Virus record (IMG/VR): IMGVR_UViG_3300025132_000361
Span: 1-21,722 of that record
Source of the DNA: a virus
Direction: 5' to 3' (one strand)
Length of the DNA stretch: 21,722 bases
Below, piece by piece: positions 2,049-13,339 of this stretch. The notes below the pieces were generated by a model. That model was given only the letters and a program-made list of their open reading frames with translations. It ran no database searches and was not told where the DNA came from. Both the position numbers and the translations under genes were made by a program. Positions within the stretch are counted from its first letter, which is position 1; each line of letters begins with the position of its first letter.

Positions 2049-5000
2049 TTATACATAACGTCTATTTTTCTTTCTTTTATTTTTGTTCTTTAAGACCTTC
2101 CCTTTATCTTCATATCCTAGTTTCTTAAGTTTTTCTTCCTCCCTTTCTTTCCTCTTTTTATTTTCTTCCTTTCTTTCCTCTTTTAGTTTTTTATACTCTG
2201 GAGTTTTCTGTATACGTTCTAATTCTTTCTGTACCTCTGGTTGTTGTTTACCAATCTTTTTCATTCGTGCTTCACTTCCATAAATACCCCACATTGAATC
2301 GGCGTTAGACTGTTCCTTTTGGTATCGTTTCTTTCTAGCAACTCTCTTTAAGTCTTTATAAAAAGGTATTAAACCAAGCTGACCTAAACCATCATAAAAT
2401 AAAGCTTCGTCTATTCTTTTTTGGTACTTCGCTTTAGTTTCATCTTTTTTAGATTGGTATCTTAATTGAATGTCTGTACCTGTTCTAGTTACAGATTTAA
2501 GTAGAGGACTTAAAGGACCTCCAAGTGCTTTAACAAGTATCTCAGGAAAAGATTTTCTTTCCAAATCCTTATCATTAAGAAGACTAAATACAATGGCATC
2601 ATCAAACGAGTCATACTCTTTAAGTCCTGTTTCTGGGTCTATCTCACCATCCCTTAAGAACCCTAGGTAGTTTTCATTAAACATTTCTAAACCATAATTT
2701 AAACCTATTCTTCCTACCTGTCCCATACCTCTTCCTGTAATAAGTGTGGTAACTGCTCCAAACATTTGTCTAAGCATCAGGTCACTGACATCTTCTTTCT
2801 CATCCTCATCTTCTTCATATCCAAGTAACAAATCATATATTGATTGGAACACTTGATATAGTACTACATATACACCCATTCTAGCAATCGCCCCTGCCAT
2901 CGTCCCTGCGGCTTGTGCTTTAGACATGTCTCCACTTCTCGTTAAAGCAAGAACAGCATTTCTTGCTGTTACATACTCGTTAAGCATAAAGGATGCCATA
3001 TATCCATTAATAGTTTTATAAGCTTTTGTAGCCATATCATCATCCGCATTTATCATATTTTTTGGTATGACATTAAATGGATTTCTACTGTTAGACATCT
3101 TCACACCCTGCCCATCTGCAAAAGCTGTTGCGTCTTTTATAGCGTCTTTATATTTAGCATCAAGATACTTAGAAGTACCTTCACCTATTTCAATTAAATC
3201 TTTAGCTGTTAATGTTTCTCCTGTAATATCCTTAAAGCTTCTCGTAAAAGCAGCAAACCATAAAGGTCTAGATAAAGCCCGATCAGGAGTAGAAAGCATT
3301 TTACTTGCAACCTCCCTTGTTAACCTTCGTGTTTGAGGTAAACCTGTAAACTGTAAGAGATATTTAACCTGCTCTACTAAAGCATCATCTTTTAATTGGT
3401 CAGGACTAAGTATACCTGTAATTATATTTTGATCTACAGTTTTGCTTGTTAAGTTTTTAGTGTCGTAATTCTTCATTGTCTCGGTACTACCAAGAGCCTG
3501 CATTATATCAAACCCTTGACTTGTTGTACTTAACGCACCAAATTGTGCTACCCCCCTAATAAACGCTTCAGGGTCAGATAATATAGCATAAGTCATGTTA
3601 CTACCAAGCTCTGCTGCTGCCCTTGGTACAGAAGCAAGAGCTGCTTCATACCCTAACCTAACTAATTCCCTATATATTTTAGTACCAATACCAGTTGATC
3701 TAAATGATTTATTTAAAACATTATCTATAACATCGTTAGTAACCTGATCTAAAGCTTTTACTGCTTCCTTTTGGTATTTAGTAGACGTATCAGAATCTAT
3801 AATATCTTCTTTTACTTTAGCTACTGTAGCTAAAGCTACTCTTACAGCATCGGTCATATAGTAATCCATCATAACATCCCTAGCTCCCCTAGCTGTAGAA
3901 GATATAGGGTCAAAGTCAATCGCTTTAGCACCTGGCGTTCTCTCTATCATCGTCTTAGCTTTTGTGCTAACTTTCATTTTATTAACTTGTTTCACTGCAA
4001 AATCTTTACCTTGGTCATCTTTATAATCAATAACACTGTGATGTACGTAGTTAGCTATAGGTTTAATACCTGTGCCACGAATAACAGTAGCAGTCCAATT
4101 AGCTTTTTGTTCTAAGTCTCCTGCTTCATCAATAAGTTTTATTGCTTTGTTTTCATTTCTAGAAAAACTGTCTCTTAATTTAGCTAAGTCTATCTCACCA
4201 TCTACAGAGAACTCCTCTTTTAGTTCTTTAAGTATTTTTATTTCCGCATCTGTATACCTAGGTTCATTAGCACGTTCATTTGCTTTTATAGTTGCATCAA
4301 TAAAATCATTAGCACTAGCCACTTGTTTATTTCCTGGATTAGATTCAAACTCACGTTGTATTCTCAACATCTGTATCTTAGCTTTCGTTCTAAATATCTC
4401 TAAAGGTGTACGTATAATTGTAGGAACCTTAGTTTTAGAAATTAATTTCTCCGCAGCCTCTAGTTTGACAGCTACGTTCTTAGCATAGTTACTTGTAAAT
4501 GTTTCATAGGCCACACCTAAAGGTCTAAATACACTGTTGTATATTGTCTTCTTATTAAAGTTACCAAATACATCATCAACCGCAGAGGTCATAGTGTTTC
4601 TTAACTGTTGTTGGAATCCTGATCTTTTTGTACGAAAAGAAAACAATTCTTTAACCTTACCATAAGCCGCAGAGAAAAACATACGAAAATCTAGTTTTTT
4701 AGTTCTAGTCTTTACCACTTCTTCTATAGTGGTTGCATTTCTATTAGTTTTAACTTTATTCATAATGGTATTAGCCAGTGCTGGCACATATCCATTATTC
4801 ATATTATCTTTAATTGTTTGTAAGTTTTCAACCATAGTGTAGTCACTCACCCCATTCTTTGTTGTAACAAGTGCTTCTATATCTTTCTTGGTTAAATTAT
4901 TTAATTCTCTCGCTAGGTCTTGAGCATCTTCAAGTTTAAGGACGTTATTTAAATCAATCTTATTTGAGATAATATCGTTGACCAATTTTTTAAATTTCTC

Positions 5001-8000
5001 TTTAATTTCTTTATTCTCTTTTTTCTTAGCCTCGATAAGTTCCTTTATCATCTCTTTCTCCACATCAGTCTTAGCTTCAGTTAAAGCCTGCTCTAACTCT
5101 TCTATAGTATTCTTTTCGCTTACAATAAAAAAGCCATCTTTGTCTATCGGTTCTTCTGTTATAGAGTTTATTATGTCAGCCGCTTCATCCATAACCTTAC
5201 CGCTATCCCTTAAATTTTTTAAGGAACGTTTTCTTTGACCGAACTCTTCCGCTAACTTAAGATAGGAGTCTAGTTTATTTACAGGTATAATATTTGCGTT
5301 TAATGTAAACAACTCTCTTAATACGGCTTGTAACTCTGGGTTAGGTCCAACCTTACCCTTTAAGTTTTCAATAGCTCTTCTTCTTTTTGTGTTAGCCTTG
5401 TTAACTTTAGCTTGATAGTCAGCGTTATCGTATACTTTTTCTATATAGTCAATCAGCCTATCTACCAACTTATCGTTTAACATATTGGTACGTAACACCT
5501 TCTTAATCATAGCTTTAGACTGTGCGTTTGTTATAACACCAGTCTTAGACATCTCATTAATAGAATCAATTATTGATTTCTGTGCGTCCTTGTATGCCTT
5601 AACACTATCCCTAGAAGACTTTGCTTGAAGTTTAATCTGATCTCTTAATGCAGTTCTTTCGTTTACTATAACCTTTTTATCTTTAGGAGATACTTTCTTT
5701 TTTGTTATTTTTTTATAGCGAGGTCGTAGCCTTAACCTATCTGTCTCTACTCTTTCTTTTACTGTTCTTTTACCAGCTCTAATGTCTTTTCTTGTTTGCT
5801 TAACATTTTCTTGAGTATCTTTTATATCCTCATTAAGTGTTCCTAGATATTCGTTTTTAACTTTTCTTTTACCTTTCTGTAAAACTTCTATTATAATATC
5901 AAATACCTGCTCACGAGTTAAGGGGTTATACCCAGCTATACCTTCTATGCCACCTTCATCCACTAGATCTTCTACTAATCCTTCAATAGTGTTTCCTCCT
6001 GCACCTTTCTTAGCTACAAAAGATGCTTTTATATCTCCATCCTTCCCTATCTTTAAACGTGTTTCTTTCTTAATAGATTCTCTGGTAATATTTTCTACAC
6101 TATTAATAACCACAAATTCAGCAGTTTTTTCTACCGTTTTCTTTTGTCGTTTAAGTTCTTTTAGTTTCTCTTTTAATTGTGTTTCCTCCTTTGTAAGCTC
6201 CTCTACAACTCTTTTTTCATCATCTCTAACTTCAGCTTCTTTCTCCTCTTTAGCTCTTTGTTTAAACTCTAAATCTTTTTTAAGTTTATCTTCTTTATCT
6301 TTTACACCGTAAGACTCGTCTATCTCTGCCTTAGAGAAACCTAATCTTTGTAATGCAGTTATGGTTTCATCTTGAGATAACCCTTGCTCTTTAGCTGCAC
6401 CTCTTACTTCCTTAATAGAAAGTTTATCCTCTCTACTTTTAGTTGTACTCTTACTTATTTTTTGTTCACGCTCTGGAAAGGCTGCTTTTTCTCTAGGATC
6501 ACGCACTTCTTTACCTCTCTCTAAAGCGTCTTTCATTCCTTGTAACTCCTTATCAACATTCGACCTAGCCTTTACATCTCTACTTTTATACCAATCAGAT
6601 TGTTTTATTTTATTGATAACTTTCTCTATAGTTTCTACAGTAAGAGCCACCCCTTCTAAGGCTGTGTCCCATACTTCCACTGGTATAATGGTACTCATCG
6701 TTCCTTTACCCTTGAGTTTACCTTCACGTATTTTATCCGCTAAACTCACTTCCTGCTCCTCTGTTTCCTTAACTGGTGCCTCTTCCGTCTTTGGAGAAAA
6801 CATTTCAACGAAAGAATCTATTTTCTTTTCCGACTCTTCCTTAGCTTTAGTTTTGATTTTCGTTTCTGCTTCTTGCGTTTCGGTAACGGTCCGAACGTCT
6901 CCTTCTCCCACTGTTTCGCTGTCTCTGGTAGATTCTTGTACATCCACGCTCTCTGTGCTTGGCTCTGAAATGGCATCTTCTTTAGTTTTAATTATTATAT
7001 TTTCTTCTGTAACTTCAGTTGGAGTAATAATGTTTTCAGACTCTACTTTTGTTCCATCTCCAAAAAGTTCTGCATAAGCAGGAGCAGTGTCAACTATATT
7101 TTGTGCGTCTTTTTTAGAAGTCGCATATAAAATTTCTCCTGTAACTTTATTAACCACTAACCATTTGTTGTCAATCTTATCTCCTTCTTCATCTATTGAA
7201 GACTCTTCTTGTCCTTTACGGTTATCTAGTATTTCAAAATCTTTAGACCAAATCTTTTTATCGGTCTTATTCATATTGTAAACTACTTGATTAGCTTCTT
7301 GTTTAGCTTTGATTTTCTCAATATCCTCCCTAGTTATTACTTTTTCTTCTGCTGGAGTTTCCTCTACTACTTCCTCTGTTACTTCAGTTGTTTCTAAATC
7401 AGATGGTGGTTTACCTATACCTGCATCTAATAATTGTTGCCCACTAAATGTTATTCTTATACTTTTAGTTGCATCTTTCTTAGTTTTACCTTTTGTTATT
7501 TCAGTTTTACCTAGAGGCTTAATATCTTGGAGTTCCGTAGGTATATCTTCTTCAGATGTATACTCGAAAGTGTAACCTTTAGTTGGGTCCGTAACTATTA
7601 TATCTTCCTCTGTAACTTCTTCTTCTACTTTACCTTCTTTCTTTACCTCACCTTCAACAGTCTCCTTTACTACCTCTTTCTGTGTATCGTCAATGGTATT
7701 AATTACATCATCGACACGTTTCTTTTGTTCTTTATTTAACTTATTATATCGTGCCTTAACATCACTAGGCTGCATCATTCCAAAAGCAGTACCCATAGCA
7801 AAAGACCCTACAATAAACTTCATGTTCTCATCAAAGTCCCCAAACCTTTCTGTAGCTGCTTCCCAAAATCCTTGATCCTCTAGATTACTATTATATAACT
7901 GAGTAAGTTCTTGAGTTGTTTCCTCACCTACTTCACCTCCACCTCTTGATATAATCTCCCCTGCACGTTGAATAACGTATGCGGCACGCTTACCTTCTTT

Positions 8001-10544
8001 ACCAAACTTACTAGCTACAAGTTTTACTAGGTCGCTTACAGGTATTTTACCTGCCACCTTTTGTATAAGCTCGCCCCCTAACGTACCTAAAAATCCACCC
8101 TCAAAACTTAACTCTTCTTGTTGATTATCAAATACAATTCCTGCTGTCTCAAATTCCACGCCTTGTTGTAAAGCTTTTTTAACAAACCTACGAGTAGCGT
8201 TTTTATCCATAGCTTTGTTGTAATTCTTTGCTATCCTTTTAACTAAGGCATCTTGGGTTGTCATTTTTTTCAAACCTCTCTTTGTAATACCAAGAGCACC
8301 TATTATAGCAGAAGTAGAACCACCCATGTCTCCCCAAAATTCCCACGAATCTAAATCTGTTTCCGTTATCTTCTCTAATTGTTCTACTATATCTTCTTCG
8401 GTATAGTCATCTGCGGTGACACCTAATTCAGGAAGCCCTCTCAATTGGTCTTGTATCATACCCGTTTGGGATTTAATTCCAGACTCACCCACTAAACCTT
8501 TAGCAAAAGCTGCACCAAATGCATCAAAGAAATTACTATCTTCTTTAGATATACCAGGAGTATTAGTTAAAAGAATAGGAGCTAGGTTATTTAATAACTC
8601 TCTGTTAGCGAGCCACTCTTTTTCTTTTTTACCTACATTTAAACCAAACTCTTTAACATTCAATATTCTTCGTGCTCCTCTACCCATCGCACCTAATATT
8701 GACCCTTCACTAAAACCACCCTCTTCTCTCAGACGATTAGTCTCTTCTCTTAATTGATGGTAAGCTCTTTGAAATTGCTCATAACTACTAAGCCCTTCTA
8801 TCTTCTCACTAAACGCTGCTCTTGCAGATGGAGATAACTCTATTGCTACTTTTGTTTGTTCTATAATTTCGTCAGGACTTGTTTTTAATATACTTGTAAC
8901 TTGAGTACCTTCCGTTAGTATTTCGTCACGCATCTTATCTGCATCCGCTTCAGTTTTTGTAATCCTTGCAGCGAGTTCTTTATATTCTGTAGAATTTGGA
9001 TCTAACGTTGCAAGTTCAGCTTGAGCGTTTCGTATCCTAGTTACTAGCTTTCCAAACGTTTCTCTCTTCTCTGTTGCACCGTCTCTATAAGCTGCGATGC
9101 TATTATCTTCTGCCGCTTGCACTGCATCAAGTAAAGACTTAACATCCATTGTTATAACTTCTTTAGCTGAATCATCAACCCCTTCTTTAAAGTTAACACT
9201 ACCATCACTGTTTAATGAATCTATCAGAGGTTGGTTAGCTAAATACTTATCTAACTTTCTTTTAGCCGTATATAACATTTTTACCATCTCGACATCACCC
9301 TCTCCATTTAATATATAATTTTTTAACTCTGCGTCATTAAGGTCTATTATATATTGTTTTTTATTTTTTCCTTCGTATGCAGCTCTAACATCTAATTTTT
9401 TATCGAAAGAAGTGTTATTCATTTTATCTTGAAGCCTTGTGTATTCCTCTTCAAGAATATTATATTTTTCCCTACTTGTTTTTCCTTTATCGAATAATGT
9501 TTTATTTGCAAATTCCTGAAAAACTTTTATATCATTTAACTCCTCAGCTGTAGCCTTATCTCCTATAAAATATCTAGCAACATCTTGTTCTGCTAACGTT
9601 TGATATTCACCTAAAGCTCTATTGATTGTATCGTCTGAAGCCTTTTGGCCAAGTTTAAATCTTGGTCCTTCGTCTTTCATTCTAGCACCTCCTATATAAC
9701 TTAAAAGACTAAATATACTTCTAGGTTCGCTAGTCTGTTCCTCTTCAACCAAAGAAAATGCGCCTAGTTCTTCTTGCTCTGTAGGTGTTCTAGATAATGA
9801 CTCATCAAACTCTCTAGTTTTTTGTGCTAGTCCTAAAGCTGTACCTGTAGCTTGAGTTTGGTCAAACTTCTCTTGATCTATAAGCTCACCGTACCGCTCT
9901 TCTATTTCTTGGTGTTTATCAGGTGCTGAGTTTTTTAACTCTTGTTCTTTTGCGGCATTAAGACCTGCTATATTTTTTTCTGATTGTGCTTTAGTACCCC
10001 CATATTTTTTATCCCATTCTTCTTGAGCCACTTTTAATGAGGCTGCCTCCATCATGTTATTTATGTTGTAAGGATTTCCTGTTAAAGGATTGATACTTTC
10101 ATTTGTAGGTCTAACATTTTCAGGAGCAGATATTTTTAAACCTTCTAAGTCTAAACCTTTAGTTTCCTCAATACCTCTATCTTGTTCTTGTATTTTCGGT
10201 GAGCCATCTGTAATAACATCTTCTTCGACTACGGTATCAACCTCAACTTCTTGATCGGAAACATCCGATGAGCCAGTAGGAACCGTCTCTTCTTCGGTAA
10301 CAGATTCCGTAACGTCCTCTTCCACAATAGGTTGAGATTCGTCTTTTTTTTTTACGTCAACTCCCCCTACATATTTATTAATAAAAGAGTCATAATCTTT
10401 AGTATAAAGCTCATCTCTACTAACTACATCATATACTTTTTGTTGATAATCTGTATCACTCCATTTTGTTTTAAACTCGTCAAAACTTTTTGTGTAATAA
10501 CCATCTCTAGTAAGAACGTTGTATAATTTTTCTAATTCATCCAT
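2049..10544 (-). CDS. giant virion protein, probable ejected internal protein
   Basis: The 2831-aa product is far longer than T7 gp16 (about 1300 aa), the position equivalent at the end of a podovirus internal-protein cassette. The N-terminus holds two copies of a 30-residue repeat (Tyr8/Tyr38, Arg13-Asp14/Arg43-Asp44, YTK 17-19/47-49, Phe24/Phe54). An acidic linker follows (about 60-115), then long helical segments. Hydrophobic patches lie near 738-751 and 905-923, with GEVGEETTQEL near 875 and Glu-rich linkers at about 950-1290. A WYKSRD segment lies near 1317, and a Lys/Arg/Glu coiled-coil region at about 1350-1850. The final third includes ERTPGAKAIDFDP (about 2200) and a membrane-like stretch (about 2552-2576) directly followed by EEDEDEKED. 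The overall layout resembles the large polyvalent proteins of Bacteroidota phages. I see no lysozyme, transglycosylase, protease or helicase motif. It follows the 526-aa gene after one base (TAA-T-ATG). The role is inferred from position and architecture. Confidence 0.75.
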   Translation of the reverse strand: MDELEKLYNVLTRDGYYTKSFDEFKTKWSDTDYQQKVYDVVSRDELYTKDYDSFINKYVGGVDVKKKDESQPIVEEDVTESVTEEETVPTGSSDVSDQEVEVDTVVEEDVITDGSPKIQEQDRGIEETKGLDLEGLKISAPENVRPTNESINPLTGNPYNINNMMEAASLKVAQEEWDKKYGGTKAQSEKNIAGLNAAKEQELKNSAPDKHQEIEERYGELIDQEKFDQTQATGTALGLAQKTREFDESLSRTPTEQEELGAFSLVEEEQTSEPRSIFSLLSYIGGARMKDEGPRFKLGQKASDDTINRALGEYQTLAEQDVARYFIGDKATAEELNDIKVFQEFANKTLFDKGKTSREKYNILEEEYTRLQDKMNNTSFDKKLDVRAAYEGKNKKQYIIDLNDAELKNYILNGEGDVEMVKMLYTAKRKLDKYLANQPLIDSLNSDGSVNFKEGVDDSAKEVITMDVKSLLDAVQAAEDNSIAAYRDGATEKRETFGKLVTRIRNAQAELATLDPNSTEYKELAARITKTEADADKMRDEILTEGTQVTSILKTSPDEIIEQTKVAIELSPSARAAFSEKIEGLSSYEQFQRAYHQLREETNRLREEGGFSEGSILGAMGRGARRILNVKEFGLNVGKKEKEWLANRELLNNLAPILLTNTPGISKEDSNFFDAFGAAFAKGLVGESGIKSQTGMIQDQLRGLPELGVTADDYTEEDIVEQLEKITETDLDSWEFWGDMGGSTSAIIGALGITKRGLKKMTTQDALVKRIAKNYNKAMDKNATRRFVKKALQQGVEFETAGIVFDNQQEELSFEGGFLGTLGGELIQKVAGKIPVSDLVKLVASKFGKEGKRAAYVIQRAGEIISRGGGEVGEETTQELTQLYNSNLEDQGFWEAATERFGDFDENMKFIVGSFAMGTAFGMMQPSDVKARYNKLNKEQKKRVDDVINTIDDTQKEVVKETVEGEVKKEGKVEEEVTEEDIIVTDPTKGYTFEYTSEEDIPTELQDIKPLGKTEITKGKTKKDATKSIRITFSGQQLLDAGIGKPPSDLETTEVTEEVVEETPAEEKVITREDIEKIKAKQEANQVVYNMNKTDKKIWSKDFEILDNRKGQEESSIDEEGDKIDNKWLVVNKVTGEILYATSKKDAQNIVDTAPAYAELFGDGTKVESENIITPTEVTEENIIIKTKEDAISEPSTESVDVQESTRDSETVGEGDVRTVTETQEAETKIKTKAKEESEKKIDSFVEMFSPKTEEAPVKETEEQEVSLADKIREGKLKGKGTMSTIIPVEVWDTALEGVALTVETIEKVINKIKQSDWYKSRDVKARSNVDKELQGMKDALERGKEVRDPREKAAFPEREQKISKSTTKSREDKLSIKEVRGAAKEQGLSQDETITALQRLGFSKAEIDESYGVKDKEDKLKKDLEFKQRAKEEKEAEVRDDEKRVVEELTKEETQLKEKLKELKRQKKTVEKTAEFVVINSVENITRESIKKETRLKIGKDGDIKASFVAKKGAGGNTIEGLVEDLVDEGGIEGIAGYNPLTREQVFDIIIEVLQKGKRKVKNEYLGTLNEDIKDTQENVKQTRKDIRAGKRTVKERVETDRLRLRPRYKKITKKKVSPKDKKVIVNERTALRDQIKLQAKSSRDSVKAYKDAQKSIIDSINEMSKTGVITNAQSKAMIKKVLRTNMLNDKLVDRLIDYIEKVYDNADYQAKVNKANTKRRRAIENLKGKVGPNPELQAVLRELFTLNANIIPVNKLDSYLKLAEEFGQRKRSLKNLRDSGKVMDEAADIINSITEEPIDKDGFFIVSEKNTIEELEQALTEAKTDVEKEMIKELIEAKKKENKEIKEKFKKLVNDIISNKIDLNNVLKLEDAQDLARELNNLTKKDIEALVTTKNGVSDYTMVENLQTIKDNMNNGYVPALANTIMNKVKTNRNATTIEEVVKTRTKKLDFRMFFSAAYGKVKELFSFRTKRSGFQQQLRNTMTSAVDDVFGNFNKKTIYNSVFRPLGVAYETFTSNYAKNVAVKLEAAEKLISKTKVPTIIRTPLEIFRTKAKIQMLRIQREFESNPGNKQVASANDFIDATIKANERANEPRYTDAEIKILKELKEEFSVDGEIDLAKLRDSFSRNENKAIKLIDEAGDLEQKANWTATVIRGTGIKPIANYVHHSVIDYKDDQGKDFAVKQVNKMKVSTKAKTMIERTPGAKAIDFDPISSTARGARDVMMDYYMTDAVRVALATVAKVKEDIIDSDTSTKYQKEAVKALDQVTNDVIDNVLNKSFRSTGIGTKIYRELVRLGYEAALASVPRAAAELGSNMTYAILSDPEAFIRGVAQFGALSTTSQGFDIMQALGSTETMKNYDTKNLTSKTVDQNIITGILSPDQLKDDALVEQVKYLLQFTGLPQTRRLTREVASKMLSTPDRALSRPLWFAAFTRSFKDITGETLTAKDLIEIGEGTSKYLDAKYKDAIKDATAFADGQGVKMSNSRNPFNVIPKNMINADDDMATKAYKTINGYMASFMLNEYVTARNAVLALTRSGDMSKAQAAGTMAGAIARMGVYVVLYQVFQSIYDLLLGYEEDEDEKEDVSDLMLRQMFGAVTTLITGRGMGQVGRIGLNYGLEMFNENYLGFLRDGEIDPETGLKEYDSFDDAIVFSLLNDKDLERKSFPEILVKALGGPLSPLLKSVTRTGTDIQLRYQSKKDETKAKYQKRIDEALFYDGLGQLGLIPFYKDLKRVARKKRYQKEQSNADSMWGIYGSEARMKKIGKQQPEVQKELERIQKTPEYKKLKEERKEENKKRKEREEEKLKKLGYEDKGKVLKNKNKRKKNRRYV

Positions 10545-10545
10545 A

Positions 10546-12126
10546 TTAGTCGTCTAACTCACCTTTTCTGTTTCTAATATTGCTAGCCTTTTTTTGTTCT
10601 TCATAAGATTGTTTAGACTCTCTATTTTTTGTATCAAATATATATTGCGACATTTGATCCATATCTTCAAAGGTTCCTAATCTAAATCTTCCAGCTTTAC
10701 CTTTTTTAGGCTTAAGTGTCTCTGCATCATATATTCTTTCATAAACCTCCCACATTCCAGTATCTCTATTATAATTAGTGTAAAGGGCATCATTAACACC
10801 AGTAACCAAGGAGTTCATATCTTTAACTACTTTCCTTTTTTCATCATCAGTCATTCGTCTAGGGTTACCATTTTCATCTCTAGATAAATTAGCTGCTTCA
10901 TTCCACACTCTAAAATATTCATCATAAAGCTCAGTATTAATAGGTGTTTTATTTCCTCCTCCACTACCATATCTAGCGGCTTGAATTTTCTGAGCCTTTA
11001 CATTTATCTTAGAAGATAACGCTGTTTTTATTTCTTCCATACCATATTTGATAGCTTGCTCCTTTTGAAATTGGTTAAGCTGTGGTTGTGCTAAACCATC
11101 CGTACCTTGTTCAAATACTAATATAGGATTGTTTTCCTCTGGGCCACCGTATGCTTCATACTCATCAGCTGAACCTATTCTAAAAGAAACACCATCTGCT
11201 GTCTTTCCAAATTCACTATCGCTAGTACGAGCTAAACGTGCTAACACATCCATCTTGTCTTGGTCGTTAGTTAGCATTTGTTCTGATTTATCTTTTAATA
11301 TTTCTTGACCTGCGGTGTTATTTGGATCTAACAATTCTTGTTCTGCTTTACTTACTGTAACATCTGTTATAGATGTTACTATACCTTCTCTTTTTAAATT
11401 AGCTCTAACCAAGGTTCCTATCTCACCTACCATTTTTTTAACTGAACCTCCCACATCAAACTTATCTATCTTCTGTCTTAGGAAAATAGACATCTGTTGA
11501 AGACTCATACTCTGACCTTTTATTGGTTGTCCTGCTTTAGGGTTTTTATCACCGTTCTCTAAAAAGGGTGGCTCTACTCTTAAAAAAGCAGCATTACCTG
11601 TCTCGGCATTAAAAGATATTTGAGAGTTATTTAAGTTAGCAAATCCTTTTAATTTTTCTGCTAGATATATTTCTTGTTCAGCATTCGTATCGTCCTTAGT
11701 TCTTTGTGCGTATTCTTTAAAAACAGCATCAAAAGCTAAAGCATTTTTTTGAAATAACTCAAACCCTGTCTTTACATTATGTTCAAACAGATTATAATCG
11801 GTAACACTAACTAATCCACGTTTCATTAAGTCGTTAAAGTTTGTTAGTTTTTCAGAAGCATCTTGTGAAGCTTGTATAGCTGTTTGTTGCAGTGTAGGGT
11901 TGTCATAAAACTCAATATCATTTAAAGCTTCTTGTCTTTCTCTATACCCTTTTTCTATAGCATCCTTTCGTGACTGTCTATCATCCCGAATATCTTCAAC
12001 TGTTTGAGTTATATCTTTAGCGGCTTGAGCCCAATCTACAAAAGATTCAGGATCTGCTCTTTCATATGTATCAAAATCAAGATTACGTCTTCTTAATATA
12101 TTAGTGTTTGTTACTGTCTTAGCCAT
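10546..12126 (-). CDS. virion protein of the internal-protein cassette, 526 aa
   Basis: I know no named family for this protein. The first 130 or so residues are helical and charged: FVDWAQAAKDITQTVEDIRDD, then KDAIEKGYRERQEALNDIEF. Such segments precede coiled coils in internal and tail-associated proteins. The middle part mixes beta and helical stretches. A region around residues 360-390 (QFQKEQAIKYGMEEIKTALSSKI) is strongly helical, and the C-terminus is Lys/Arg/Glu-rich. There is no signal peptide or membrane segment. It sits between the gp14-like protein and the giant protein, where T7-type phages encode gp15, part of the ejected DNA-translocation channel. By position it may serve the same role, but no sequence motif proves it. 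It starts 9 nt after the upstream stop. Confidence 0.65.
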   Translation of the reverse strand: MAKTVTNTNILRRRNLDFDTYERADPESFVDWAQAAKDITQTVEDIRDDRQSRKDAIEKGYRERQEALNDIEFYDNPTLQQTAIQASQDASEKLTNFNDLMKRGLVSVTDYNLFEHNVKTGFELFQKNALAFDAVFKEYAQRTKDDTNAEQEIYLAEKLKGFANLNNSQISFNAETGNAAFLRVEPPFLENGDKNPKAGQPIKGQSMSLQQMSIFLRQKIDKFDVGGSVKKMVGEIGTLVRANLKREGIVTSITDVTVSKAEQELLDPNNTAGQEILKDKSEQMLTNDQDKMDVLARLARTSDSEFGKTADGVSFRIGSADEYEAYGGPEENNPILVFEQGTDGLAQPQLNQFQKEQAIKYGMEEIKTALSSKINVKAQKIQAARYGSGGGNKTPINTELYDEYFRVWNEAANLSRDENGNPRRMTDDEKRKVVKDMNSLVTGVNDALYTNYNRDTGMWEVYERIYDAETLKPKKGKAGRFRLGTFEDMDQMSQYIFDTKNRESKQSYEEQKKASNIRNRKGELDD

Positions 12127-12135
12127 AATTTAATG

Positions 12136-12927
12136 TTAAAAATTAAACCCCCCGCCTGAAGTAGAATTTATTAGTGTTGTCATCTCATCAGTAAAATCAA
12201 AGTTATTAGTATCGGGATTCCACTTAAATGCCGAAGCATTATCTGAGGATCCTTGTAAATACTTAGAAAATTTATCATCAGATAATGTATATGCCCAACC
12301 TGCATCAGACATACCTTCAGGTTTTTGTGAAGCGAATTTTTTTGCTAATTTACTACCTTGTATATCACTACTACTTTTACCATATAAAGGAGCTATACTA
12401 GCACCAGACTGTAAAGCTGAAGTGATACCACTTACACCACTTTGTATAGATTGTGCTCGTGCAGCCTCTGCATCTCTTCGCATTTGGCTTTGTTGTTTTG
12501 CAAAAGATAAATCCATATCTGCTAACTGTTGGTTTAAGTCTGTTTTAGAATCGGCTTTCATTTTATCTAAAGCAAATAAATCTTGACCCATATCAATACG
12601 AGTTTTTTCTCTAGCTTGATTAGCTAATGCTCCGACTCTACCTACACCTGCAGCTAAATTTCTAGCATCCCCTTCTTGTAATGCCTCAATAGCTGTTTGT
12701 TGTCCTGCTAACTGTTGTTCAAACTCTTCTTCGTATGCATCCATAGGCACAGTAAGACCTGCATAAAAATCTTTTTCTAATCTTTTTCTCGCCTCTTTCC
12801 TTGCTTTATTTGCTTCTCCCTCTGCTCTTTGCGCTGCCTTTTTTTGGTCTGCTGCATTACTAAAGGATACTGCTGCGGAAGCTACGCCTCCTACTACTCC
12901 TATTACTGCTGCTGTTACTGCTGCCAT
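12136..12927 (-). CDS. gp14-like internal virion protein with N-terminal membrane segment
   Basis: The 263-aa protein opens with one hydrophobic, Ala/Val/Gly-rich helix (residues about 3-24). A long Ala/Lys/Arg/Glu helix follows (about 25-50), and then VPMDAYEEEFEQQLAGQQTA and ALQEGDARNLAAGVGRVGAL (about 60-105). This combination is typical of the small internal virion protein of podoviruses (T7 gp14 type), which inserts in the host outer membrane during DNA ejection. The middle is rich in Ala, Gln and Asp heptad-like helices. The C-terminus turns Ser/Gly/Asn-rich and ends GGGFNF. It starts one base after the stop of the acetyltransferase-like gene and is followed by the 526-aa and 2831-aa genes, giving a three-protein internal cassette. 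Assignment rests on architecture, position and remembered sequence pattern, not on a search. Confidence 0.65.
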   Translation of the reverse strand: MAAVTAAVIGVVGGVASAAVSFSNAADQKKAAQRAEGEANKARKEARKRLEKDFYAGLTVPMDAYEEEFEQQLAGQQTAIEALQEGDARNLAAGVGRVGALANQAREKTRIDMGQDLFALDKMKADSKTDLNQQLADMDLSFAKQQSQMRRDAEAARAQSIQSGVSGITSALQSGASIAPLYGKSSSDIQGSKLAKKFASQKPEGMSDAGWAYTLSDDKFSKYLQGSSDNASAFKWNPDTNNFDFTDEMTTLINSTSGGGFNF

Positions 12928-12928
12928 A

Positions 12929-13339
12929 CTATATTTTTTTTATCATTTCTTGTGTATACGTACTTCCTTCTATAAACCCTACTTTTTTATAGGTCTGTAT
13001 TAAAGGTTGGTTTTTAATTAATGCATATATATATTTCATTCCTAGTAATTCTGCTTTATCACTTATTGTTTTTATTAATAACTCCAAAGCTTCCTTTCTT
13101 TTTTGTCTATCCTTATAACTTATGTTAGAAATAATCCAATCACACCATACTGCTTTGGAATTAGTAAGATACATAAATCCCGCACACACTGGTGTATCTC
13201 CATCATAAACTATAAAACCACCTTTTCCCCCTTCAGGTAAAAAATCTTTTGAAGGAGGAGTCCACCTCCAATCTTCCCACCAACCACAAAGGATATCTTT
13301 ATAATCTGTTTCTTTAAGTGGTATTATATTTAATTGCAT
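12929..13339 (-). CDS. GNAT-like acetyltransferase in the virion operon
   Basis: The 136-aa protein has the size and layout of a GNAT fold. An N-terminal strand (MQLNIIPL) precedes a WWEDWRWTPP segment and the core strands GGFIVYDGDTPVCAGFMYL and KAVWCDWIISN. Next comes the basic segment KDRQKRKEALELLIKTI, placed where the pyrophosphate-binding loop and helix of acetyl-CoA would lie. The C-terminal helix-strand pair LIQTYKKVGFIEGS is the usual GNAT ending (xxYxKxGF). The canonical Q/RxxGxG/A loop is replaced by KDRQKRKEA, so acetyl-CoA binding is likely but not certain. Similar proteins occur inside structural operons of marine phages, in my recollection. The substrate is unknown; an N-terminus, a Lys of a phage protein or a host factor are all possible. 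The start codon lies in a perfect 14-bp palindrome. Confidence 0.7.
   Translation of the reverse strand: MQLNIIPLKETDYKDILCGWWEDWRWTPPSKDFLPEGGKGGFIVYDGDTPVCAGFMYLTNSKAVWCDWIISNISYKDRQKRKEALELLIKTISDKAELLGMKYIYALIKNQPLIQTYKKVGFIEGSTYTQEMIKKI

Follow-up and report, generated by a model that had tools for sequence, protein, structure and literature searches.

A conserved A10 tract with an overlapping −1 frame in the modular giant gene of a putative podovirus ejection cassette

We analysed the virus record IMGVR_UViG_3300025132_000361, a fragment of 21,722 bases that was taken whole and is called the window, and in it the gene for a giant protein of 2831 amino acids (aa), which an initial annotation had described as a virion protein lacking any recognizable enzyme motif. 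The open reading frame (ORF) is real, runs from ATG to stop on the minus strand and covers 8496 of the 21,722 bases (39%, where about 40% had been claimed); the longest other ORF inside it has 154 aa. Proteins of 263, 526 and 2831 aa form a cassette beside a crassvirus-type muzzle gene, and the giant, third in order, closes this internal-protein cassette, as had been proposed, before convergent small plus-strand genes are met head on (Table 1). Two features of the giant gene were absent from the initial annotation, namely, mosaic exchange of modules and an A10 tract with a conserved overlapping −1 frame.

Table 1. Coordinates of the giant gene, its parts and the neighbouring virion genes in the window
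Feature	Position	Strand	Remarks
Giant gene, 2831 aa, no cysteine, third in the putative ejection cassette	2049..10544	minus	ORF from ATG to stop
N-terminal module, aa 1–62, two-fold internal repeat (~30 aa), swapped between phages	10359..10544	minus	
A10 tract, read as T10 on the plus strand; candidate slippage/−1 frameshift site	10344..10353	minus	
Conserved overlapping −1 frame, 33 codons and stop	10243..10343	minus	Would form the C-terminal part of a frameshift product of 100 aa
Linker 1, aa 63–130, Glu-rich	10155..10358	minus	First part dual coding
Middle module, type M3, aa 131–955	7680..10154	minus	92% identical in L002
Linker 2, aa 956–1230, Glu/Thr-rich	6855..7679	minus	
Lys/Glu-rich segment, aa 1231–1655	5580..6854	minus	By profile search, found only in L089
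C-terminal module, type C1, aa 1656–2742	2319..5579	minus	Mostly helical model
Lys/Glu/Arg-rich tail, aa 2743–2831	2052..2318	minus	
Second cassette protein, 526 aa, no cysteine	10546..12126	minus	
First cassette protein, 263 aa, no cysteine	12136..12927	minus	PHROG 13764 'virion structural protein', E 2.4e-9
Muzzle-type protein, 273 aa	13360..14181	minus	crAss_MUZ_C, PF25729, E 1.8e-11, above Pfam cut-off

Scans of viral contigs yielded two close relatives, L002 and L003; of 552 confirmed loci reached through the muzzle gene, the best 80 were used. Giants were read in 34 sources and collected as the largest ORF, with no selection for the N-terminal module or the tract; three were open at the 3′ end and were dropped, leaving 31 complete giants (that of the window included) of 2042–3859 aa. 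The cultured relatives of the structural genes are phages of Cellulophaga, Flavobacterium, Tenacibaculum and Maribacter.

The A tract follows the 62-aa N-terminal module and lies in the first Glu-rich linker. It was present in all 31 giants (29 with A10, one with A9 and one with A11) and, as A10, in the giants of the cultured phages elemo, Gundel_1 and phi40:1, giving 34 of 34 with the tract and 32 with exactly A10; phi40:1 has it despite a different N-terminal module. Apart from the tract, one run of at least nine was found in the 261,867 nucleotides (nt) of the 31-giant comparison, and MW202828 (60,850 bases) has no A/T run of that length other than the tract, which is A11 in this genome. 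The window has one other A/T run of at least nine, an A9 at 1753–1761, where two small plus-strand genes overlap; its last base is the first of the ATG at 1761. The A10 tract stands in two codon registers, in 23 and nine genes, and therefore the nucleotides, not the lysines, are conserved.

The −1 frame after the tract was open for 24–45 codons in 34 of 34 genes, with a median of 33 against 4 elsewhere in the same genes. At the background positions (the same genes from codon 400 onward, n=78,839), at least 24 open −1 codons were found in 3.4%, and both alternate frames were open for at least 24 codons at 227 positions, compared with 32 of the 34 sites. The mean −1 opening was 34.1 codons, against 6.3 in synonymous shuffles. 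The encoded peptide is rich in Arg, Tyr and Gly, with an approximate consensus, read from the alignment, of RRFSTYFSRGSYGIRYxxxGxxWLIGxFRS. Its mean pairwise identity was 0.211, compared with a null of 0.107 ± 0.004 (maximum 0.119) from 300 synonymous shuffles of 24 dereplicated genes; the frame-0 linker, at 0.181, fell below the −1 peptide. A similar peptide was found at 14 further loci, chosen because they had an A run and in some cases close to the counted genes. Upstream of the tract the −1 frame is closed (median of six open codons, three of them at the tract) and holds no start codon in 30 of the 34 genes; for these reasons it would most simply be entered by slippage at the tract. Taken together, the sequence comparisons show dual coding at the N-terminal junction, and indicate programmed −1 frameshifting or transcript slippage with a putative second product of about 100 aa.

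With one extra A, the product would have 82–114 aa in the 31 giants, 60 aa in phi40:1, 83 aa in Gundel_1 and 103 aa in elemo. That of the window would have 100 aa and three cysteines, and, since the cassette proteins lack cysteine, this hints that the short product is perhaps not itself ejected. None of three short −1 products had a Pfam family above cut-off; one matched PHROG 24532 (E 2e-9) via its N-terminal module.

The giant might instead be an ordinary large structural protein in which the A tract does no more than code for a poly-lysine hinge, and the −1 frame is open as a side effect of linker composition. Every tract does encode lysine-rich residues (VKKK in 12, LKKK in 11, EKKN in seven and others in four), and Asp/Glu/Ser/Thr-rich stretches are somewhat more open, chiefly in the +1 frame. 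However, AAA makes up 69.8% of the lysine codons, from which 34% of KKK sites would be expected to be all-AAA; this was so in one of 86 elsewhere and in 22 of 24 at the tract, and the remaining two read AAA AAA AAG within an A10. The tract is also retained in two registers with different amino acids, only 5.8% of the Asp/Glu/Ser/Thr-rich positions (n=3018) had 24 open −1 codons against 34 of 34 at the site, and the −1 peptide is conserved above the synonymous null. We therefore consider the hinge quite unlikely.

Several observations weigh against a programmed −1 shift. A −1 start codon is possible ahead of the tract in four of the 34 genes. The +1 frame, too, stays open for longer than expected (35.6 codons, compared with 16.4 in shuffles), its peptide is mildly conserved (0.159 against a null of 0.111), and Asp/Glu/Ser/Thr-rich stretches elsewhere were open in +1 for at least 24 codons at 28% of 3018 positions; because the +1 frame is unusually open as well, openness alone does not fix the direction of the shift, and a second alternative, +1 product may be encoded. 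An A run of at least eight was not found in N4 gp50, T7 gp16 or crAss001 gp49 and gp50, nor one of at least nine in crAss001 gp45–gp47. The giant genes are related, so the counts are not independent. Finally, phi18:3 and phi46:3 have an A9 tract that places the N-terminal module and the body in different frames, and this split is either real or a homopolymer sequencing error. As a consequence of the A9, the module is a separate annotated ORF in both phages (L123 15310–15633 in phi18:3 and L175 4619–4939 in phi46:3). After the module, phi46:3 has two large cysteine-free ORFs of 1439 and 626 aa (L175 4939–11458), and phi18:3 has one of 1935 aa.

Homopolymers are mutable, and these two A9 genes, with module and body out of frame, would suit a phase-variation switch in which changes in the number of A residues turn the giant body on or off within a phage population. 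All 31 collected giants, however, are in frame, and simple on/off switching leaves the conserved −1 peptide unexplained; we judge such a switch unlikely. The same peptide is left unexplained if the A-rich tract serves as a signal to start translation internally, for a body without the N-terminal module. A-rich leaders matter in Bacteroidota, and phi18:3 gp123 is annotated from a TTG about 120 nt past the tract, but inspection by eye for Met alone showed no consistently placed Met just past the tract in the frame-0 peptides. An internal start thus appears very unlikely.

The giant gene is a mosaic. The two halves of the N-terminal module align with each other better than shuffles do (p<0.05) in 27 of the 31 giants, and the module of the window is 55% identical to that of L106 and 61% identical to that of L093; the match to L002 starts only at aa 64. 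For typing, aa 101–900 and the last 1000 aa of 35 giants (the 31 and those of four isolates) were grouped by single-linkage clustering, which gave five middle types, six C-terminal types and 13 combinations, including M3-C1 in the window, M3-C0 in L002, M0-C3 in L003 and M0-C1 in L089. M3 was seen nowhere beyond L002 in one pattern scan, and hhalign found no relation between M3 and M0. Linker 2 contains the motif 'DAISEPSTESVDVQES' (aa 1177–1218, window 6891–7016). The DAIQ-SSTESVDVQE-VGxGD linker was found by pattern in 18 of the 31 giants, mostly ahead of an HExxH, with a 19th match (L115) judged spurious; the window retains this linker without the HExxH.

Close relatives illustrate the exchange. 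L002 and L003 have 83–91% DNA identity in those upstream virion genes that were compared, and 93% downstream, and their muzzle proteins are 92% identical, while their giants have only two stretches of about 100 nt in common and no residues aligned as protein. The window giant shares 93% DNA identity with L002 over 2749 nt (about aa 64–975, the first third), compared with 67–77% for the other virion genes where alignable and 82–86% for the early genes; with L003 it shares 98% over 374 nt and 93% over 203 nt, both within or adjacent to linker 2. The small plus-strand gene at 366–824 is 95–97% identical in L002 and L003, above every virion gene compared. L097 and L098, with muzzle proteins 97% identical, have giants of more than 3100 aa that share just 594 identical residues, whereas L107 and L111 have muzzle proteins 78% and giants 87% identical; module exchange is thus frequent but not universal. 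In the 526-aa type, variation in the C-terminal 150 aa follows that at the start of the giant more closely than does variation in the N-terminal 250 aa, and the DNA similarity of L002 and L003 ends within this gene. Covariation of the 526-family C-terminus with the giant N-terminus (partial r 0.48) was set aside: it is no stronger than that with giant aa 100–500 (0.53) and may be mere linkage.

As the initial annotation had stated, the giant carries no enzyme signature. Pfam and NCBIfam gave no family above curated cut-off (one Pfam row, E 0.15) and no Pfam family at E 0.01, PADLOC gave no match at E 0.1, PDB sequences gave no significant match, and HExxH, DxDxD and Walker A motifs are lacking, as is cysteine. 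HExxH, a zincin-like motif that is common but not required in polyvalent proteins, is present in 25 of the 31 giants. Two matches to a loose transglycosylase pattern (aa 687 and 2065) and one GxSxG (aa 610) were taken as chance. PHROG 32588, of unknown function, matches aa 1970–2747 (E 6.8e-103). In tblastn against 50,697 phage records, the whole giant and its C-terminal 863 aa found nothing, compared with 87 found by the neighbouring 306-aa gene. The Glu-rich linkers that had been described are borne out (21% Glu at aa 63–130 and 17% at aa 956–1230), but the hydrophobic patches are weak: no 19-residue Kyte–Doolittle window reaches 1.5, the top values being 1.30–1.35 at aa 2545–2574. As to the coiled coils that had been described, the model of the C-terminal 1087 aa is largely helical. 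The suggestion of several undescribed domains agrees with the modular structure and the lack of Pfam families; the early action in the host is a proposal of that annotation only. Among the other giants, ART-PolyVal, LPD23 and FtsK_gamma were each found by Pfam in one of 16, and rows for DUF6861, Phage_L5_gp82, DUF3293, QSregVF_b, PhaC_N and T4SS_pilin were not used. A 'YHGS' stretch in L002 looked ADP-ribosyltransferase-like to the eye, and Pfam at E 0.05 gave nothing there. Of the cultured counterparts, phi18:3 gp123 corresponds to PHROG 22602 and phi40:1 gp101 matches part of it; Gundel_1 gp74 and elemo gp18 gave no PHROG at E 0.001.

A model of the C1 module, built with 40 relatives of aa 1656–2742, was mostly helical (predicted local distance difference test, pLDDT, 72.4; predicted template-modelling score, pTM, 0.74). 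Foldseek against predicted viral proteins gave matches at E 1e-8 to 2e-5 with template-modelling (TM) scores of about 0.2–0.4, to proteins named large polyvalent protein associated, PolyVal ART, MuF and 'protein inside capsid D'; for the LPD and ART-PolyVal models, the TM scores were about 0.3–0.4. VIA rows for the ejectosome core chains of T7 (which we take to be gp16) and PhiM1 had Z 4.4–5.1 over 204–227 aa, within helical noise, and T7-type and other ejectosome rows were missing from the 50 rows listed for the domain alone. C1 aligned with C0 over 97 columns at a probability of 67%, and elemo gp18 shares C1 (blastp E 4.8e-6; fold E 3e-18 for the elemoC_14-1A protein). Among the 40 C1 members, 25 scattered Pfam families (best E 1.4e-5) were not used. 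A C1-type giant also occurs in L173, a contig of an Aureispira metagenome-assembled genome, which is possibly a link to a host or a co-binned phage.

The location in the virion, and the ejection that had been suggested, are supported for counterparts of the window protein. In phi18:3, gp120, gp121 and gp123 are annotated 'based on experimental MS/MS proteomics analysis' (tandem mass spectrometry) of virions, as are the cassette products gp99, gp100 and gp101 of phi40:1. The giants of both phages are not similar to the C1 module, and these data are thus evidence for the cassette, not for the window sequence; elemo gp18, which has C1, is annotated as a structural protein.

Cysteine is nearly absent from the whole cassette: one in 87,258 residues of the 31 giants, none in 18,218 residues of the first-gene family (66 proteins) and six in 41,413 residues of the second (62 proteins), compared with 0.66–3.2 per 100 residues in five other families of the same cluster, the two lowest of which have 11 of 56 and eight of 61 cysteine-free members. 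Of 48 C1 loci, 39 were entered in a further count, from which four duplicates and the frameshifted ORF of L143 were dropped; the resulting 34 giant ORFs, found without the muzzle gene and mostly cut at the 5′ end, had two cysteines in 78,390 residues. L143, a C1-type locus, has 93 stops in the reported frame and was left out of the counts. In the complete genome MW202828, the giant has one cysteine, against 44.7 expected from the other tabulated annotated proteins (57 in all).

The same depletion was observed in known systems. The ejected proteins of N4, T7, P22 and crAss001 (14 proteins, so classed in part from PMC10172136 and PMC8954989) have eight cysteines in 15,342 residues: none in N4 gp50/51/52 or P22 gp7/20/16, one in T7 gp14/15/16 and seven in crAss001 gp45/46/47/49/50. 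A hand-picked set of 36 other proteins of these phages has 167 in 20,318 residues; T7 gp6.7 (one cysteine in 88 residues) and gp7.3 (none in 99) were placed in neither group. The absence of cysteine had already been used to flag an N4-like giant in PMC10747016, and cysteine is not mentioned in the searched passages of PMC12633501, PMC8954989 and PMC4496689; the present analysis extends the mark to entire cassettes and applies it to P22, T7 and crAss001 as well. Near absence of cysteine is an empirical mark of ejection proteins and not a formal definition, and the giant bears it, as well as the third position in a cassette of small, medium and giant internal proteins. From the cassette, the MS/MS annotation of the counterparts and the cysteine-free signature, we infer that the window giant is packaged and ejected.

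Other findings count against this assignment. phi18:3 gp122, which bears the N-terminal module, carries no MS/MS note, and its counterpart phi46:3 gp119 is called structural by similarity only. The C1 fold had no match in PDB at E 0.001, and hhalign found no sequence match of C1 to N4 gp50, T7 gp16 or crAss001 gp47. Some non-ejected proteins, N4 gp56 and gp57 and P22 gp8 and gp26, are also cysteine-free, and the mark is therefore strong only for long proteins.

Size, helical content, lack of cysteine and a gene position like that of N4 gp50 could also point to a cryptic virion RNA polymerase, as proposed for another cysteine-free giant, that of phage StenR_269, in PMC10747016. The window giant, however, has no DxDxD and no match to T7-type polymerase patterns, catalytic motifs included; C1 has no similarity to N4 gp50; and the absence of cysteine also marks the ejection proteins of P22 and T7, whose roles are not those of polymerases. 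Such an identity is the least likely of the alternatives, and extremely so.

Among the remaining genes of the cassette region, the 263-aa protein gave a T7_gp14 Pfam row at E 0.52, below cut-off, and hhalign found nothing between it and T7 gp14. Scanning directly with the 526-aa protein gave no relative. Inside the virion cluster lies an acetyltransferase-like gene of 136 aa with cysteines (12929–13339, minus strand; weak Pfam row, E 0.23), which has 48 unique homologues in the searched loci. Farther upstream, on the same strand, are genes of 339, 1761 and 306 aa. The C-terminal domain of the muzzle protein, a crassvirus-like mark, is present in the window.

The cassette resembles N4 gp52/51/50 in its small, medium and giant proteins (150, 644 and 3500 aa) and their lack of cysteine. 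N4 gp50 is ejected and carries an HExxH domain, as described in PMC12633501; unlike this virion RNA polymerase, the window giant has neither polymerase motif nor HExxH, and its gene carries the A tract. The gene order is that of T7 gp14/gp15/gp16, which are likewise nearly cysteine-free (1, 0 and 0), with no sequence match and weak structural rows only. Polyvalent proteins are giant, modular and thought to be injected (Iyer et al. 2017, PMC5512222); the window giant is modular as well but has no recognized enzymatic domain, the named PolyVal domains occurring in single relatives. In crAss001, gp45–gp47, gp49 and gp50 (seven cysteines in 7478 residues) are encoded past the muzzle gene and are internal cargo proteins according to PMC10172136; that phage has RNA-polymerase-related giants, whereas here there is one giant. 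The closest systems are phi18:3 gp122 and gp123 (Pachyviridae), phi40:1 gp101 (Pervagoviridae) and Flavobacterium elemo gp18, which have the same locus, cassette, A tract and −1 peptide; the C-terminal modules of the first two differ from that of the window, and that of elemo does not. In size, where the protein had been expected to be among the larger ejected ones, N4 gp50 has 3500 aa, elemo gp18 3694 aa and the giant of the Manatee Spring phage 3859 aa. Frameshifted tail-assembly proteins such as lambda G/GT also yield two products from one start by a slip in a virion gene cluster. Unlike in G/GT, the frame-0 product here is the giant, the shift would lead to the short product, and the cluster is an ejection cassette, not one for a tail chaperone.

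In our assessment, the giant is probably the large, modular third ejection protein of an aquatic flavobacteriophage-type podovirus, with a shift at the A10 tract to a short −1 product. By analogy with relatives, virions would contain it together with the proteins of 263 and 526 aa, and it would reach the host cell along with the DNA or ahead of it, in a state that is at least partly unfolded. Its exchangeable modules, the N-terminal 62-aa repeat, the middle and the helical C-terminal part, are joined by conserved linkers. The A10 tract would put a fraction of the products into the −1 frame, by a ribosomal −1 slip or by one extra A in the mRNA, and the product of about 100 aa would consist of the N-terminal module and a basic, aromatic, Gly-rich tail. 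From the reading frames we infer this shift, by ribosome or polymerase, as well as the short product and its role, the most likely of which, speculatively, would be that of an assembly helper or placeholder at the docking site of the N-terminal module during packaging, similar in logic to the frameshifted tail-assembly proteins of other phages. That the nearly invariant A10 tract splits expression between the effector at full length and a conserved short protein, about 100 aa long, which has the same N-terminal docking module and regulates or plugs the loading of the effector into the virion is a proposal we hold with evenly balanced confidence; it would apply to a broad, abundant group of aquatic Bacteroidota podoviruses.

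Runs of cysteine-free genes can serve as an easy marker of ejection cassettes in sequence data. The A10 tract and the conserved peptide overlapping it form a dual-coding element that lends itself to direct testing, and phages carrying the tract are in culture (phi40:1, elemo and Gundel_1, and phi18:3 with A9). For N4, PMC12633501 describes as unknown how a giant is threaded through the narrow tail; the present set provides comparative material, in which a docking end and linkers recur while cargo modules are swapped between close phages. With linkers and module type retained and cargo modules exchanged freely, the proposed split of expression at the tract would, if true, constitute a natural cargo-loading system for phage-injected proteins.

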